Below, piece by piece: positions 16,686 to 31,069 of a stretch of 64,000 nucleotides of DNA. Position numbers and translations under genes: made by a program. The notes under the pieces were generated by a model that did no database searches, was not told the origin of the DNA, and saw only the letters and a program-made list of their open reading frames with translations. The stretch lies in assembly GCF_000381745.1 (NCBI RefSeq), contig NZ_KB906972.1:1-64000 (forward strand). Direction: 5' to 3'. This DNA is from Psychromonas ossibalaenae ATCC BAA-1528 (lineage in GTDB: Bacteria; Pseudomonadota; Gammaproteobacteria; Enterobacterales; Psychromonadaceae). Position 1 is the stretch's first letter. Every line of letters begins with the position of its first letter.

Positions 16686-18404
16686 ATGGTCGAGCGCACA
16701 CAAATATCTATTATTTCTCAATTGCAGCTGCTCGACCGACTGCAGCATCTCATTTATTTGTCTTCTTCTTTAATCTTTGTTTCCGGAGAAAAAGGAAGCG
16801 GTAAAAGTACGCTTGCCCAACTGCTTTCAAATAAGCTTCCGAATAATATTCAGCAAGTTTATGTGCAGTTAGCTGAGTCACTGTCAGATTCACAAATCAG
16901 ACAGCAGATATTATCGCAATTATACGAACAGCCGCTATTTAATCCTTTGGATGACCTGTTCACCTCCATGTCGTTACTGCAGGAAAAACATAATAGTGAT
17001 GCTGCGCGTTTAATTATGCTGGACAATGCGCATTTAGTTTCTTTTGAACTGTTAACTGAGTTGTTACAGGTTATTTCACAAAAAGAGCAGTTTGGCGAAA
17101 ATGAGGTTAATATCTTATTTCTTGCTGATGCTTTTAGCAATCAGCAGATGATGACCTTAATCAACCAGGCTGAGCAGAAACAATTACAAAAGTCCGCCTG
17201 TCTGGAGTTTAAATTAGAGCCTCTAGGTAGAGGTGAGTCAACCGCCTTATTAAACCATATCTTTAAACAGTCCAGCTATAAACCGCAAATTGAACACCAG
17301 GATGCTTTATCAAAGCAGTTAGGCGCCTGTTTAGGCTCTCCTCAGAAAATAATTCAATTAGCGGAAAAAATAATTGCAGGGACATTAGAAAATAGTGAAC
17401 CCTCCTGGCTGAAAGCACGATTACCAGCTGTTTTATTAATGCTGTTGATGCTCCTTATTGTCGGCGCTCTTGGCACCTATCTATATCCGTCTTTTATAAC
17501 TTCAACCTCTCCGGAAGTTGATCTTGAAGTGGTTATCGAAATTGAGAGTGAGCTGCTGGATGAAATTACTGATTCAGGCATTACCGCTGGTCAGGAAGTA
17601 TCAGCACCAGCTGCTGAAGCTGAGGTGCTGGCAGGCAGCTGGCAGGGCTCTGAAAAAAAACAGATAGAAGGCAGTCGTCTGCTGGTGGGTGAGAGTGATC
17701 AAACAGATAAACGGGTGGTCATATCAGAGCAGCAGATATCAGCCCTGCCTGATGTTAAAGCCGCCTCTTCTGTAAATAAACAGGAGGATTTCAGCATAGA
17801 ACAGCTTGAAATAACTCAACAAAAGGAGCAGGCAGTTAGTGAAAACAACGGATTAAGCACGGTAGAACAAGATGCTGAGCTTATACTGCCAGTCGCCGCC
17901 CCTGTAGAAGAGCAAAGTGTTTTAAGCAGTGCAGTCGCCACGACCGATGCAAATGAGCCCATTGACATGCAGTTCAATAGTGAAGCTGTTGTAGAAGAAG
18001 CTATAAAGATTAAGGTGGAAGCGTTAGTTCCTGTGGCTGCCGAGACTGCTCCGGTAAAGAAACGTGATGCAGTCAAGAAGCCAGATGAACACTCGTTTTT
18101 TACTGCTAAAGAGATATTATTTGCTGTAAAGCCGTCTTTATACACCTTGCAGCTCTCAGGTATGAGCTCAGAATTAACTCTGCAGCGCTTTATATCTAAG
18201 CATCAGCTGCCGCTAGAAGGTGTTTATCTGTATCAGACGATACGTAATAAAAAGCCTTGGTATGTAGTGATTTTCGGACAGTATAAAAGCTTGGAAGCAG
18301 CTAGAACGGCAGGTAAAAAGCTGCCGGGGTCACTGGCTGATATGGACAGCTGGGCCAAAAAATATCAATCTGTACAACAGGATTTACGTTTAAATAATGA
18401 ATAA
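16686..18404 (+). CDS. damX: DamX-type cell-division protein with AAA and SPOR domains
   Basis: DamX localises to the septal ring through its SPOR domain, which binds glycan strands stripped of stem peptides. The 572-aa protein has an N-terminal AAA-type ATPase domain (Walker A GEKGSGKST near 35-43, Walker B-like LIMLDNAHL near 110). A single transmembrane helix follows (about 245-265), then an acidic, low-complexity periplasmic linker (about 270-470) and a C-terminal SPOR domain (about 485-570, TLQLSGMSSE...KPWYVVIFGQY). The ATPase half is present in Vibrio-type DamX but reduced in E. coli. It overlaps dam by 8 bp. Its SPOR domain closely resembles the C-terminus of the 26705-28423 product. 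Confidence 0.9.
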   Translation: MVERTQISIISQLQLLDRLQHLIYLSSSLIFVSGEKGSGKSTLAQLLSNKLPNNIQQVYVQLAESLSDSQIRQQILSQLYEQPLFNPLDDLFTSMSLLQEKHNSDAARLIMLDNAHLVSFELLTELLQVISQKEQFGENEVNILFLADAFSNQQMMTLINQAEQKQLQKSACLEFKLEPLGRGESTALLNHIFKQSSYKPQIEHQDALSKQLGACLGSPQKIIQLAEKIIAGTLENSEPSWLKARLPAVLLMLLMLLIVGALGTYLYPSFITSTSPEVDLEVVIEIESELLDEITDSGITAGQEVSAPAAEAEVLAGSWQGSEKKQIEGSRLLVGESDQTDKRVVISEQQISALPDVKAASSVNKQEDFSIEQLEITQQKEQAVSENNGLSTVEQDAELILPVAAPVEEQSVLSSAVATTDANEPIDMQFNSEAVVEEAIKIKVEALVPVAAETAPVKKRDAVKKPDEHSFFTAKEILFAVKPSLYTLQLSGMSSELTLQRFISKHQLPLEGVYLYQTIRNKKPWYVVIFGQYKSLEAARTAGKKLPGSLADMDSWAKKYQSVQQDLRLNNE

Positions 18405-25348: not shown

Positions 25349-26581
25349 TTAAGGGGTTAATATTTTCTGTTTATAAAGGTTAACTGCATCAATACGCGCC
25401 TGCTGGAGCTGCATTTTAATCTGCGCTCCGGCATAACCTTTTTTGATTATATCTTGTACATTTACAGTTGTTGCGGTTTGGAAAGCCTGCCAGATATAGT
25501 GCGCATTGGGGTAATCTTTATCTTCAAAACCAGTACGGCCTTTGGTATCTGCAATACAGCATTCCAGCATTTGTAAAAACCGCTGCGGTTTTCTCCAGGC
25601 ATCACTTTTATCCATTAACTTAACCAGTGTTGACGCTTTTAACTCAAATGCACTGTGTACCAGGGTATGGTGCTCACTCACTAATAATGCTAAATCACGA
25701 CATTCATTGGGAATTTTGAGGCGCAGACATAAATCTCTAATTGTCTGCAGACCTAAAACACCATGGCCCTTATGACTTGGCCAGTTTTCTTTAGGGGTCA
25801 GTGCTTTTCCAAGGTCGTGCACTAAACAGGCAAAACGAAAAGCCAAGCAGTCTGAAAGTTTTACTGACTGCTCAACAACCATTAGTGTATGGATACCGGT
25901 ATCAATTTCAGGATGCCACTGTTTCGGTGCTGGAACGCCGAATAAACAATCCAGTTCAGGAAATAATACACCCAGCGCACCGCAGTCACGTAAGACCTGA
26001 AAATAGATCTGCGGGCTGTCTGTCTGCAGTGCTTTTGCTGTTTCAAGCCAGGTGCGCTCGGCCGTTAAATGATCCAGTTCACCGCTGCTGCTTAGTGTCT
26101 GCATCAGCAGTAGTGTTTCCGGGGCGATTTTAAATCCAAGTTTAAAAAAGCGGGCTGCAAAACGTGCGACCCGTAGAACCCTGAGTGGATCTTCGCTGAA
26201 TGCAGGGGATATATGACGTAATGTTTTTGTCTGTAAATCTTCTAAGCCCTGGTAGGGGTCAAACAACTCATCTTGTTCGGATAAAGCTATGGCATTAATG
26301 GTTAGATCCCGGCGCAATAAATCATCTTCAAGTGAGACATCCTGCCCGGCGTAACACTCAAAACCGGTATAACCACAACCCTGCTTGCGCTCAGTACGGG
26401 CAAGGGCGTATTCTTCACCGGTCTGCGGGTGTAAAAATACCGGAAAGTCTTTACCAACCTGTTGGTAGCCCTGCTGCAGCATGTTTTCCGGGGTAGTGCC
26501 GATTACCACATAATCGCGGTCTTTAACTGTAAGTTGTAATAGTTTATCCCGAACTGCGCCGCCGACTAAAAATACCTGCAT
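25349..26581 (-). CDS. cca: Multifunctional CCA-adding enzyme
   Basis: Cca adds or repairs the CCA tail of tRNAs without a nucleic acid template. The 410-aa protein has the class II nucleotidyltransferase head ([10 protein letters not shown] near the start, then DRDYVVIG with the DxD metal site), [10 protein letters not shown], and the [12 protein letters not shown] nucleotide-recognition helix. A C-terminal HD phosphohydrolase domain ([11 protein letters not shown], then GHGVLG) is typical of the gammaproteobacterial long form. The neighbouring genes uppP and ygiM match the E. coli locus. Confidence 0.96.
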
Positions 26582-26704: not shown

Positions 26705-28423
26705 ATGTACCAGGAATTTTTTTCATTACAAACACCCCCTTTTTTGCTCTCTCCAGACCCATTTTTTTTGTTTTTGAGTGAGCGCCACAAAGAAGCGCTT
26801 GCACATTTAAGGCATGGGTTAGAAGGCAGGGGCGGGCTAGTTCTGCTTACGGGAGAGGTAGGTACCGGAAAAACAACAGTCTGCCGCTCGCTATTGCAGG
26901 ATCATGCAGAAAATATAGATATTGCTTTTATTTTAAACCCGGCATTAACTGAAGTTGAGTTAATAGAATCTGTCTGTGATCAGTTTAAAATTGCCTATGA
27001 TTCTAACAATATCTGTTTGAAAACATTGTTAGAGCTACTAACAGCATGGCTGCTCGAGAATCATCAGCAGGGGCATCGAGCTATTATTTTAATTGATGAA
27101 GCGCAGCATTTGAGTTTTCTTGATTTACAGCTGTTATCTGTATTAGCAAATATTGAAGCAGATAATAAAAAGGTATTACAGGTCATTTTGATTGGTCAGA
27201 CTGAACTGCAGCAGCTGCTGAAACGGAGTGAATTTAGCCAGTTAGCACAACAGATTACTGCTCGTTATCATCTATTAGCTTTGACCCGCCAAGAAAGCGA
27301 GGACTATATTCGACACCGCTTAAATGTGGCTGGTGTATACGGCCCCGTTTTTGATAAGCAGGCTTTGTCACTTGTTTTTGAAGTCAGCGGGGGGATCCCG
27401 CGAATAATTAACCTGCTGTGTGATCGCAGTCTGCTATGTGCATATGTACAAAACTGCTCAGCAGTAACCGCGGCTCTGGTAAAAAAAGCGGGATTTGAGA
27501 CTGAATTATTAATTAAGCAGCCTTTTCTTCTTCCTTCTCTTAAATATGTGCCTACGGTCATTATATTAGGTTGTATATGTCTATTGACGGTAATGCTGGC
27601 CCCAAAAGTTTTTGCCCGCTTCGAAGCCGCTGCAGTAAAGACTGAATCAAGCCCTGTACCTGCACCTGAGCATATCGAAAATTTTGAAAAAAGTACGAGC
27701 AGTGAAATCTTGTCCTTGAGGCGATTGAATGCTGCACAGCTGGTTTATATCATGAATTACTTTAGCGTAGAGACTGCCGCGACTGCTGATAAAGCAGAAT
27801 TCTATACTCTCCAGCCGGAAATTGAGATCAATAAAACAGAGTTACTTAGTGTGCCGCCGCTAGTTGAGGGAAATACAGCTGAGCCGTTTAGTGCCAAGTC
27901 GACAGCTGTCATAAATAACAGTGAGCCGGCAGATATCCCGCCGCCAGTAATAAATAAAACGAAAGCCCCGCCGGTATCAAAGCAGGTTAATGCTGTGGAA
28001 GCCATTAAAACAGTAGACAGTGAAATAAAACTGCGGCCTGAACCGAGCCTAGAACAGAAGACACAAGATATTGTTCAGCTGCAGAAACCAGCTGAAAACC
28101 AATCAGTAGAGCAGATGTTTACGCCAAGTGAGCAGTTGTTGGCTGTATCCCCTGCAGCATATACTGTGCAGTTGTCTGGTTTTGCCTCTCCAGTTGTTCT
28201 GCGTCGTTTTTTTGTACAGCATAACCTGCCTCGGCAGGACATTTATATTTATCAGACACTGCGCAATAATAAACCCTGGTATGTTGTTATTTCCGGTCAG
28301 TATCATGGTTTTAAAGTAGCTAAAGAGGCTGCTGAGCACTTACCGGGATCGCTGTTTGGTATGCCTTTCTGGATAAAAACATACCGGGATGTTCACAAGC
28401 AGGTGCATTTAAATGAACAATAA
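26705..28423 (+). CDS. ExeA/GspA-like AAA ATPase with C-terminal DamX-type SPOR domain
   Basis: Residues 1-270 are very close to the ExeA product of the next gene: MYQEFFSL, SPDP.FLFLSERHKEALAHL, Walker A GEVGTGKTT, Walker B ILIDEAQHLS, QVILIGQTELQQ and the GIPRIINLLCDR sensor segment are shared. A transmembrane helix follows (about 280-300) and then a Glu/Pro-rich periplasmic linker (about 300-470). The last ~90 residues are not the peptidoglycan-binding module of ExeA but a SPOR domain (YTVQLSGFASP...KPWYVVISGQY...LPGSL) nearly colinear with the end of DamX at 16686-18404. Binding of denuded septal glycan is inferred from SPOR biology. No clear ribosome-binding site precedes the ATG. Confidence 0.85.
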   Translation: MYQEFFSLQTPPFLLSPDPFFLFLSERHKEALAHLRHGLEGRGGLVLLTGEVGTGKTTVCRSLLQDHAENIDIAFILNPALTEVELIESVCDQFKIAYDSNNICLKTLLELLTAWLLENHQQGHRAIILIDEAQHLSFLDLQLLSVLANIEADNKKVLQVILIGQTELQQLLKRSEFSQLAQQITARYHLLALTRQESEDYIRHRLNVAGVYGPVFDKQALSLVFEVSGGIPRIINLLCDRSLLCAYVQNCSAVTAALVKKAGFETELLIKQPFLLPSLKYVPTVIILGCICLLTVMLAPKVFARFEAAAVKTESSPVPAPEHIENFEKSTSSEILSLRRLNAAQLVYIMNYFSVETAATADKAEFYTLQPEIEINKTELLSVPPLVEGNTAEPFSAKSTAVINNSEPADIPPPVINKTKAPPVSKQVNAVEAIKTVDSEIKLRPEPSLEQKTQDIVQLQKPAENQSVEQMFTPSEQLLAVSPAAYTVQLSGFASPVVLRRFFVQHNLPRQDIYIYQTLRNNKPWYVVISGQYHGFKVAKEAAEHLPGSLFGMPFWIKTYRDVHKQVHLNEQ

Positions 28424-28449
28424 GATAATAACAACAGCTTTGATTAGTT

Positions 28450-28485
28450 AAGGAAGGGAGTTCCTTCTTGAGCTATCTCCCTTCC
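28450..28485 (+). promoter_or_regulatory. Possible alternative-hairpin leader before exeA
   Basis: GGAAGGGAG (28452-28460) can pair with CTCCCTTCC (28477-28485), or AAGGAA can instead pair with TTCCTT (28461-28466). The two folds share bases and exclude each other. No U-tract follows. It lies between the SPOR-type ATPase gene and exeA. A regulatory role is inference only. Confidence 0.35.
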
Positions 28486-28622
28486 CTGGTTGATTATTGA
28501 CTGAATAAATTGCTCTTGAACTGTATTGTCGACTAAAATAGCTGCATTGTTTTCCTGCGCTATTAGTGTCAGGGGCTGACAGGCAGTTAATTTCGTTGCC
28601 GCTATTTTCTTTAGGCTTTGTA

Positions 28623-30251
28623 ATGTATCAAGAATTTTTCTCTTTAAAAGAACAACCCTTTTCGATTTCTCCAGATCCTGATTTTCTGTTTTTAAGCGAA
28701 CGTCACAAAGAAGCGCTTGCACATTTACAGTACGGCCTGCAGGGTAATGGTGGTTTTGTATTATTAACCGGTGAAGTTGGAACCGGCAAAACAACTGTAT
28801 GCCGTTCTTTACTGCAGAACCTGTCTATAGATACGGATATTGCATTTATTCTTAATCCGGCATTAACTGAAATAGAGTTATTAGCGACGGTTTGTGATGA
28901 ATTTAAGATTGAATACGACCAAGACAAAATCAGCTTAAAACTGCTATTTGATGCACTAACCGTCTGGATGATGAATAATCATCTGCAGGGACGAAGTGCC
29001 ATTGTATTAATCGATGAAGCACAGCATTTAAGCTTTTCTGTATTAGAGCAGCTGCGTTTATTAACTAATATCGAATCTAATAATAAAAAACCCCTGCAGG
29101 TTATTTTAATCGGCCAGACTGAACTGCAGCAGAAGTTAAAACAAACAGAACTTCGTCAGCTTGCACAGCGAATTACTGCTCGTTATCACCTGCTGCCTTT
29201 AAGCCGTCAGGAAAGTGAGTATTATATTCTGCACCGCCTCAATGTCGCAGGTGCGTGTTTCCCTATTTTTGAGCGTAATGCTTTGAAGCACATCTATAAA
29301 GCTAGCCAGGGCATTCCGCGTTTAATTAACCTGCTCTGTGACCGCTGCTTATTATGTGCCTATACGCAGAACGTGCCGAAAGTAACCGTAGCTGTGGTGA
29401 AGAAAGCCGGTGTTGAAATGGAATTAAGCGAAAATAACGGCTCTTTTATCATCAATAACTGGCGAATAACCACGCTGATTGTTTTATGTATGTTAACTGG
29501 AATACAGGCACCACAAATACTTGCTCGTTTTAACGATGCACAGCCAGGAGCCGCAGTACTGCAGGAAGTTCCGCAGTTAGAAGAGGTAAAGCAGGTGAGT
29601 GAACCGGTAATTCAGGCGCCGTCCGTTGAAGAGGCGCCGCAGTGGTTTGATGCTTATCCTGATTTACAATTATCCAACGCATCTTTTGATAATGCGCTGC
29701 TGAATTTATATGCGGTGTGGGGGTATCAGGCTGATATTGACAATGTGGACTGCGGGCAGGGTGAAGGGGCGTTGTTGTCCTGTTACTCGATAAACAGTAG
29801 TTTAAAAAAACTAAAAAAATTAAATTATCCCAGTATCATTAAGTTAGAAAACAATGCTCAGGATAGCTTGTATGCAGTTCTTTATAAAGTCAGTGATAAA
29901 TATCAGCTTTTGATTGACGGGCAGGTGATAAGGGTTTCTGAAACCTGGTTTAATCAATATTGGACAGGTAATTTAACTATTCTATGGCAGGCTCCGTTTG
30001 CAGAGCAGAAAGTACTTAAATTTGGTCAGCAGAATGAGCAGGTGGCCTGGTTAGTAACACAACTTAATAAGGTGCAGGGACTGGCTAGAGAGGATAAAGA
30101 TCGTTTTGATTTACAACTACTGCAGCAGGTCAGCGCTTTTCAAAGAGCGCAGGGGTTATCAGATGATGGTCTCGTTGGTTTTCGGACTATGATGCCGTTG
30201 ATGCAGTTAGCTAACCCTGAGCTGCCTCGTTTGATGGAGAGCAGTAACTAA
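28623..30251 (+). CDS. exeA: Type II secretion-associated ATPase ExeA (GspA)
   Basis: ExeA with ExeB helps the secretin ExeD/GspD assemble through the peptidoglycan layer. The 542-aa protein has an AAA ATPase domain (about 1-270, Walker A GEVGTGKTT, Walker B VLIDEAQHLS), a membrane helix (about 285-305) and a periplasmic half. That half has a cysteine-peptidase-like fold region (about 340-450, DCGQGEGALLSC) and a C-terminal PG_binding_1 domain (about 460-535). The ATG at 28623 aligns with the start of the paralog upstream; the frame is open 19 codons further, but that extension is unsupported. The stop overlaps exeB by 1 bp. Confidence 0.9.
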   Translation: MYQEFFSLKEQPFSISPDPDFLFLSERHKEALAHLQYGLQGNGGFVLLTGEVGTGKTTVCRSLLQNLSIDTDIAFILNPALTEIELLATVCDEFKIEYDQDKISLKLLFDALTVWMMNNHLQGRSAIVLIDEAQHLSFSVLEQLRLLTNIESNNKKPLQVILIGQTELQQKLKQTELRQLAQRITARYHLLPLSRQESEYYILHRLNVAGACFPIFERNALKHIYKASQGIPRLINLLCDRCLLCAYTQNVPKVTVAVVKKAGVEMELSENNGSFIINNWRITTLIVLCMLTGIQAPQILARFNDAQPGAAVLQEVPQLEEVKQVSEPVIQAPSVEEAPQWFDAYPDLQLSNASFDNALLNLYAVWGYQADIDNVDCGQGEGALLSCYSINSSLKKLKKLNYPSIIKLENNAQDSLYAVLYKVSDKYQLLIDGQVIRVSETWFNQYWTGNLTILWQAPFAEQKVLKFGQQNEQVAWLVTQLNKVQGLAREDKDRFDLQLLQQVSAFQRAQGLSDDGLVGFRTMMPLMQLANPELPRLMESSN

Positions 30252-31069
30252 TGTCGACAATTTTACAAGCATTACAGAAACAGCAGGCGAGTCAGAATAC
30301 TCAAATTCACGATAACATGCTCTTAGAAAACGATAATTTAAAATGGAAAGCCGCATTATTAACGGCATTGTTAGTCATTATCTGCTTATTAGGCGTATTG
30401 ATTTACATGCAGTTTCATCCGTTTAGCGGGGTAAACAGCCAGCAGCCTGTTATTGTTCAAAATAACAGCGTGCAGAAAACAGAGAAAGTAACTGCTGAGC
30501 AGCCTGTCAGCAGAAGTGAAAAACCAGCTGTCGGGACGGTTGAAAAATTAACTTTTGTTACAAAACCGCTGCCTGAGGTCAAAGTGCAGGAGCCTGAGCA
30601 AATCCTAGTGTCGGCACTGCCGAAATCAAAAAAACAAGTAACAGCGGAACAGAAAAACAGTAGTAATGTAGCGCCGGCAGAACCTGGGTCTGAAAAAATA
30701 CCGCAGGAACTGGATTACAGTGAGGTATCCGATGATTTACAGAAGCGTTTTAAACTGGCCGTATTAGAGAGCCAAGCCGCTGCTAAGAGTCCTGCAATTG
30801 AGGAAGAGGAAACAGGAGACGGGAGTGATATCAATCAGATGGGTTATGCATTTCAGGAGAAAGTTCCAGCCATGAGCTATGACTTCCATGTGTACTCTAC
30901 GATTGTTGAAGATCGCTGGATCCGCATTAATGGTGAAGATTTACGTGAAGGGCAGTTTGACGCCGCCGGGAAAATTAAACTTATTGAAATCCAGCCGCAG
31001 CGCAGTATATTCCGTATAGGAAGACAGAGCTTCAGCCTTGAGTCATTGACGGACTGGAAAGGTTATTAG
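30251..31069 (+). CDS. exeB: Type II secretion assembly protein ExeB (GspB)
   Basis: The 272-aa protein starts MSTILQALQKQQ, the cytoplasmic tail typical of GspB. One transmembrane helix follows (about 32-52), then a long Pro/Glu/Lys-rich periplasmic linker and a C-terminal GspB domain (about 205-272, YDFHVYSTIVEDRWIRING...IEIQPQRSIFRI). GspB partners GspA in secretin insertion. It is coupled to exeA by a TAATG-type overlap. The core gsp genes are not in the window. A perfect hairpin follows its stop. Confidence 0.9.
   Translation: MSTILQALQKQQASQNTQIHDNMLLENDNLKWKAALLTALLVIICLLGVLIYMQFHPFSGVNSQQPVIVQNNSVQKTEKVTAEQPVSRSEKPAVGTVEKLTFVTKPLPEVKVQEPEQILVSALPKSKKQVTAEQKNSSNVAPAEPGSEKIPQELDYSEVSDDLQKRFKLAVLESQAAAKSPAIEEEETGDGSDINQMGYAFQEKVPAMSYDFHVYSTIVEDRWIRINGEDLREGQFDAAGKIKLIEIQPQRSIFRIGRQSFSLESLTDWKGY

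Follow-up and report, generated by a model that had tools for sequence, protein, structure and literature searches.

An ExeA-type ATPase ending in a DamX-type SPOR domain beside an intact exeA gene in Psychromonas

Introduction

To our knowledge, it is not settled how large secretin rings get across the peptidoglycan, nor at which site of the cell they do so. In the type II secretion system (T2SS), GspA and GspB, also called ExeA and ExeB, act in the insertion of the secretin through this layer, according to the accessible parts of two reports (PMC9239104, PMC6617341). SPOR domains recognise glycan stripped of its peptides, which is enriched in the septal ring, as stated in the accessible part of a third (PMC6895207). 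In the order Enterobacterales, DamX ordinarily has an AAA part followed by a membrane segment and a SPOR domain. In this work, we describe a gene, here called ExeA-SPOR, which joins an ExeA-type ATPase head to a DamX-type SPOR tail and lies beside an intact exeA gene in Psychromonas ossibalaenae ATCC BAA-1528 (assembly GCF_000381745.1). The window, that is, the whole stretch of DNA analysed, comprises 64,000 nucleotides (positions 1 to 64,000 of contig NZ_KB906972.1).

Each of the closest described systems shares some traits with this gene and differs from it in others. ExeA-SPOR resembles GspA/ExeA in its AAA part, 64-69% identical to that of its neighbour, in the position of its membrane segment and in its place at the exeAB locus; in contrast to GspA/ExeA, it carries a linker and a SPOR domain, has no C39-like or PG_binding_1 domain and sits beside an intact exeA. 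With DamX of the Enterobacterales it shares the overall layout (AAA part, membrane segment and SPOR domain) and the type of SPOR domain, whereas its AAA part is only 24% identical over 229 columns, the Walker B glutamate is present and the gene is not at the aroB-dam locus. In Legionella, a predicted SPOR domain likewise occurs in a T2SS component, as the available passages of PMC9239104 and PMC6617341 describe; there, however, it is borne by the secretin LspD and GspA/GspB are absent, while ExeA-SPOR is an ATPase paralogue beside exeAB. Another example is the short GspA of Pseudoalteromonas, an ExeA-type ATPase in which the usual half in the periplasm is missing (PMC9239104, accessible part); the frames that we inspected measure 304-383 residues. 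At those loci, unlike the one considered here, nothing was found in place of that half, nor was a second ExeA-type frame seen.

No description of a protein combining an ExeA-type AAA part with a SPOR domain was found in a literature search that left subscription papers mostly outside, nor in the accessible parts of PMC9239104, PMC6617341, PMC6895207 and PMC7642682. This agrees with a preliminary description of the locus, made from its letters, whose author knew of no described example. What is new is that an ExeA-type head bears a DamX-type tail beside an intact exeA; the combination of AAA part, membrane segment and SPOR domain alone was already known. ExeA-SPOR is a real, conserved variant of GspA, undescribed as far as our searches go. 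Here a septum-type end has naturally taken the place of a general peptidoglycan-binding one while the parent gene persists unchanged alongside, and this provides a ready means to test whether division and secretin insertion are linked.

Domain composition of the two ExeA-type genes

Two adjacent ExeA-type genes lie where the preliminary description had placed them, ExeA-SPOR at 26705-28423 and exeA at 28623-30251. Judged from its sequence, the ExeA-SPOR product is a paralogue of the T2SS assembly ATPase GspA/ExeA. It matches Pfam AAA_22 with 79.4 bits over residues 42-172, above the cut-off, and its identity to the ATPase half of the neighbouring ExeA is 64% over residues 1-309 and 69% over residues 1-268. 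At these values the paralogy proposed earlier stands, while the words "nearly identical", applied to the two halves, do not. The membrane segment occupies the same place in both proteins. The second gene has kept the canonical ExeA half, as had been reported: AAA_22, GspA_C39-like and PG_binding_1 were all matched, and among solved structures its product matched the periplasmic GspA structure 4G54 (E=5.2e-16).

In ExeA-SPOR the sequence beyond the membrane segment is of another kind. The linker, earlier called rich in Glu and Pro, indeed contains 12% E, 10% A and 10% P, and the C-terminus is recognised by the Pfam SPOR profile PF05036 with 24.7 bits (residues 483-554; gathering cut-off 21). 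The alignment of this end to the C-terminus of DamX, also proposed earlier, was recovered with 46% identity over 121 columns and six gaps, all in the linker part; over approximately the last 100 residues, the identity to DamX is 49-50%. A phmmer search against solved structures led to the SPOR domain of Escherichia coli DamX (2LFV, E=1.3e-8). C39-like and PG_binding_1 domains were absent from the best 25 of 28 family matches (E up to 1) of the window's ExeA-SPOR, and from the families listed for five other ExeA-SPOR proteins of the genus. Together with the SPOR match, these absences bear out the proposed replacement of the periplasmic end by a DamX-type SPOR domain. With the NCBIfam models, ExeA-SPOR stayed below every cut-off; the DamX model scored 35.7 bits against a cut-off of 256.

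The Pfam SPOR scores of all six proteins range from 21.3 to 33.0 bits, and those of a short-linker subtype (21.3, 22.8, 22.9 and 25.9) barely exceed the cut-off of 21. A chance SPOR call was considered and rejected, given the 2LFV match and the occurrence of the same layout, above the Pfam cut-off, in five other Psychromonas genomes.

Distribution in Psychromonas and beyond

The ExeA-SPOR gene was found in 6 of the 24 Psychromonas genomes searched: the window genome (G000), P. aquimarina ATCC BAA-1526 (G002), P. hadalis ATCC BAA-638 (G004), P. marina NBRC 103166 (G006), G010 and Psychromonas sp. Urea-02u-13 (G011). A long-linker subtype of 571-572 residues occurs in two of them (G000 and G002), and the short-linker subtype of 433-450 residues in the other four. 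The gene adjoins cca in every carrier and directly precedes exeA in five of the six, a contig end lying between them in G004. An exeAB-type ATPase is present in 22 of the 24 genomes; the exceptions are G015, without any, and G020 (51% complete), whose single one is of the type associated with the mannose-sensitive haemagglutinin (MSHA) pilus. Seven genomes, the six carriers and G019, contain a second, tandem ExeA-type copy, which ends in a SPOR domain in six of the seven. The diverged G019 copy (L055:3200-4123) has D-D at Walker B and stops right after the membrane segment.

Wider searches scored at most three candidates per genome. In the order, 277 of 394 genomes gave a match, and among the matches listed no genes but the six of Psychromonas reach profile position 450; in the class, 234 of 369 genomes did so, and among the matches listed the window gene alone extends that far. 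A search of 394 genomes for DamX-type SPOR domains scored at most 13 candidates per genome; among the matches listed, the six carriers alone have two frames of at least 400 residues. A purpose-built profile detected SPOR in none of 33 regions with ExeA-type frames of odd length or distant kind. SPOR was found in 4 of 80 named loci, all from Psychromonas, and in none of the 66 loci of other genera. As far as the matches listed go, the layout is limited to these six genomes and is not a common annotated subfamily. Since the C-terminus also passes the SPOR profile, the novelty withstands both refuting conditions named in the preliminary description; rare cases outside Psychromonas may exist.

Among the matches listed for DamX-type SPOR domains, six genomes of another genus (code g35) have a further protein that ends in such a domain (G191:C5, G210:C10, G133:C7, G087:C1, G228:C160 and G157:C1); its frames, 285-321 residues long, are shorter than the ExeA-SPOR layout needs. 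At class level, ExeA-type ATPases (L211-L222 and other regions) have varied C-termini, some of them FHA- or receiver-like by eye.

Selection on ExeA-SPOR

The ratio of nonsynonymous to synonymous substitution rates (dN/dS) was computed from a comparison of the window genome with P. aquimarina. The AAA and SPOR parts of ExeA-SPOR are under purifying selection, with values of 0.148 and 0.171, respectively; the linker has 0.548 and the 35 codons around the membrane segment 0.70. For comparison, the whole-protein values are 0.188 for DamX and 0.224 for ExeB. From these ratios, a pseudogene was judged unlikely.

Proposed role and competing explanations

We propose that, in the window lineage, exeA was duplicated in tandem and one copy had its C39-like/PG_binding_1 half exchanged for the linker and the DamX-type SPOR domain. 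The SPOR end would bind denuded (peptide-free) glycan at the division site and thereby concentrate the ATPase there, and the ExeA-like AAA part would cooperate with ExeB and ExeA, possibly in a ring made up of both ATPases. In this way, septa and new poles would be the sites at which GspD secretins are helped to insert through the wall, with the ordinary ExeA serving the rest of the wall. The SPOR domain very probably binds peptidoglycan, and the protein is probably enriched at septa; for a part in GspD assembly, the chances appear evenly balanced. That all three hold together can be put forward only tentatively. The most detailed version, in which an active GspA paralogue, its SPOR domain reading septal glycan and its ring mixed with ExeA, directs the insertion of GspD to septa and new poles in step with division, seems doubtful. 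The locus hints that building of the secretion pore may be tied to cell division in some Psychromonas. It would also show that AAA proteins as distantly related as GspA and DamX can arrive at one layout by exchanging domains.

Septal targeting is plausible from those SPOR residues that are conserved. The accessible part of PMC6895207 names Q351, S354 and W416 as key to the septal localisation of DamX, the serine hydroxyl not being needed, and describes R380 and K418 as a basic patch of its SPOR domain. All six ExeA-SPOR proteins retain the residues corresponding to Q351, W416 and K418, and two of them the one corresponding to R380. As the client, GspD is likelier than PilQ or the MSHA secretin, since the PilQ encoded in the window possesses its own AMIN domain, an ExeA-like ATPase gene adjoins that of the MSHA secretin, and the genome contains a T2SS cluster. 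In this cluster, GspC, D, E, F, G, H, J, K and L score above their NCBIfam cut-offs and GspN above its Pfam cut-off, while GspM is matched only below its cut-off.

Several observations weigh against the proposed role. ExeA-SPOR is missing from 16 of the 22 Psychromonas genomes with an exeAB-type ATPase, and the protein evolves faster than ExeA (whole-protein dN/dS of 0.300 vs 0.065). Serine 354 is replaced in all six proteins, and none of the four short-subtype proteins has the equivalents of R380 and W385. The long subtype has Q in place of the arginine of the ExeA motif LAQRITARYHL, and with the loss of the C39-like and PG_binding_1 domains, pairing with ExeB or GspD may have been lost as well.

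The best-surviving alternative is that ExeA-SPOR is a second DamX, which left secretion for division or peptidoglycan synthesis and whose ExeA head is merely a cytoplasmic part. The common layout and a SPOR part nearest to Psychromonas DamX speak for it; however, a separate damX with AAA and SPOR parts is present in all six carriers, and the ExeA-SPOR gene remains at the exeAB locus. The ATPase motifs point the same way: Walker A (GEVGTGKT) and Walker B (DEAQ) are kept in all six ExeA-SPOR proteins, whereas the Walker B glutamate is found in none of 20 Psychromonas DamX rows (19 N, 1 G) and in 1 of 13 rows of other genera. With no such glutamate in Psychromonas DamX, an active ATPase would here be more than a mere DamX trait, and we regard a second DamX as rather unlikely.

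An improbable explanation is that ExeA-SPOR is a regulatory subunit, joining ExeA rings to tune or sequester them, with SPOR as an alternative, general wall anchor and not an address for the septum. The high similarity of the AAA halves would suit such a role, as would the long branch (0.50) on which the canonical ExeA of the short-linker genomes lies as well, as if the two were changing together; the residues for denuded glycan are, however, mostly kept in the long subtype. That ExeA-SPOR works for the secretin of the MSHA pilus and not for GspD is very unlikely. All six carriers and 5 of the 18 non-carriers have an MSHA-type secretin adjoined by an ExeA-like ATPase gene (p 0.0034, Fisher test), but relatedness is not taken into account in this count, and the carriers fall into no more than two clades. 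Moreover, the MSHA cluster has its own ATPase, and in the window genome it lies on another contig than ExeA-SPOR, which sits with exeAB. A decaying duplicate without function, which the fast evolution relative to ExeA, the weakly constrained linker and membrane region and the truncated G019 copy might suggest, deserves hardly any credence, as the frames are open and the Walker motifs kept in all six genomes and the folded parts are constrained.

Origin of the gene

The spacer between ExeA-SPOR and exeA contains, at 28483-28618, a decayed copy of the 5' end of cca and of the exeA upstream region, so that a unit reaching from the cca 5' end to exeA was duplicated in tandem. In the window lineage, the cca-proximal copy of the duplicated exeA is, on this evidence, the present ExeA-SPOR gene. 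To score this scar, spacers were compared with reference upstream regions against 500 dinucleotide shuffles each. No shuffle reached the score for four of five references in the window genome, or for three of four in P. aquimarina. For the upstream region of the window genome itself, which carries an insert, the corresponding numbers are 4 and 26 of 500. No clear scar was seen in three short-subtype spacers, in which nine comparisons gave 3, 15, 50, 69, 102, 307, 333, 341 and 423 of 500.

The ATPase and SPOR parts were also placed in separate trees. The AAA tree groups both ExeA-SPOR subtypes among Psychromonas ExeA, and the SPOR tree places both with Psychromonas DamX with weak support (71/73). 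The approximately unbiased test of a single clade gave p 0.353 on the AAA tree and p 0.41 on the SPOR tree. A second AAA tree comprised 36 of 40 rows (both G019 rows, G151 and G347 left out), and a tree of six neighbouring proteins from 21 of the 24 genomes (G015, G019 and G020 left out) sets the two carrier clades apart. The two subtypes may go back to one old origin followed by losses or to two origins. The layout may have arisen twice in Psychromonas, once for each subtype, and in that case it would be a repeatable way of passing secretins through the wall.

Features of the locus and observations on DamX

Coordinates are collected in Table 1; the gene order is cca (minus strand), ExeA-SPOR, exeA and exeB. 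A long hairpin directly follows the ExeA-SPOR stop codon (28424-28495) and may end or tune transcription ahead of exeA. The fold of the whole ExeA-SPOR/exeA spacer beats 199 of 200 shuffles (z -2.84). A promoter scan found 12 sites against a shuffle mean of 9.3, no better than the shuffles; terminator-like sites numbered 11 against 4.0 in shuffles and were not used as evidence.

Table 1. Position of ExeA-SPOR, its parts and related features in the window
Feature	Coordinates	Strand	Remarks
ExeA-SPOR gene	26705..28423	+	572 residues; ExeA-type AAA ATPase, membrane segment, linker, SPOR
ExeA-SPOR, ExeA-type AAA part	26705..27514	+	residues 1-270; Walker A and Walker B (DEAQ) intact
ExeA-SPOR, single hydrophobic, membrane-like segment	27557..27613	+	residues 285-303; hydropathy window 2.43
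ExeA-SPOR, E/A/P-rich linker	27620..28138	+	residues 306-478; fast evolving
ExeA-SPOR, DamX-type SPOR domain	28151..28366	+	residues 483-554
Spacer, decayed copy of cca 5' end	28483..28547	-	scar of the tandem duplication
Spacer, diverged second copy of exeA upstream region	28548..28618	+	
Canonical exeA/gspA	28623..30251	+	AAA_22, GspA_C39-like, PG_binding_1; best start ATG 28623
exeB/gspB	30251..31069	+	T2SSB; 1-base overlap with exeA
cca	25349..26581	-	divergent neighbour, source of the scar; presumed cca
damX	16686..18404	+	AAA_22 and SPOR; comparator, nearest SPOR relative type

The window DamX and the 20 Psychromonas DamX rows have D-N (19) or D-G (1) at Walker B in place of D-E, and Psychromonas DamX may bind ATP but not hydrolyse it. 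In Psychromonas sp. RZ22 (G014, L045), damX seems to be missing: there is no DamX match in the genome, and the aroB-dam gap measures about 150 bases. Two short DamX frames, of 289 (G012, L105) and 314 residues (G005, L106), have no detected AAA part, and both carry other residues at the positions of Q351, W416 and K418. In Psychromonas sp. CD1 (G009, L110), damX is broken up into two frames, 268 and 112 residues long.

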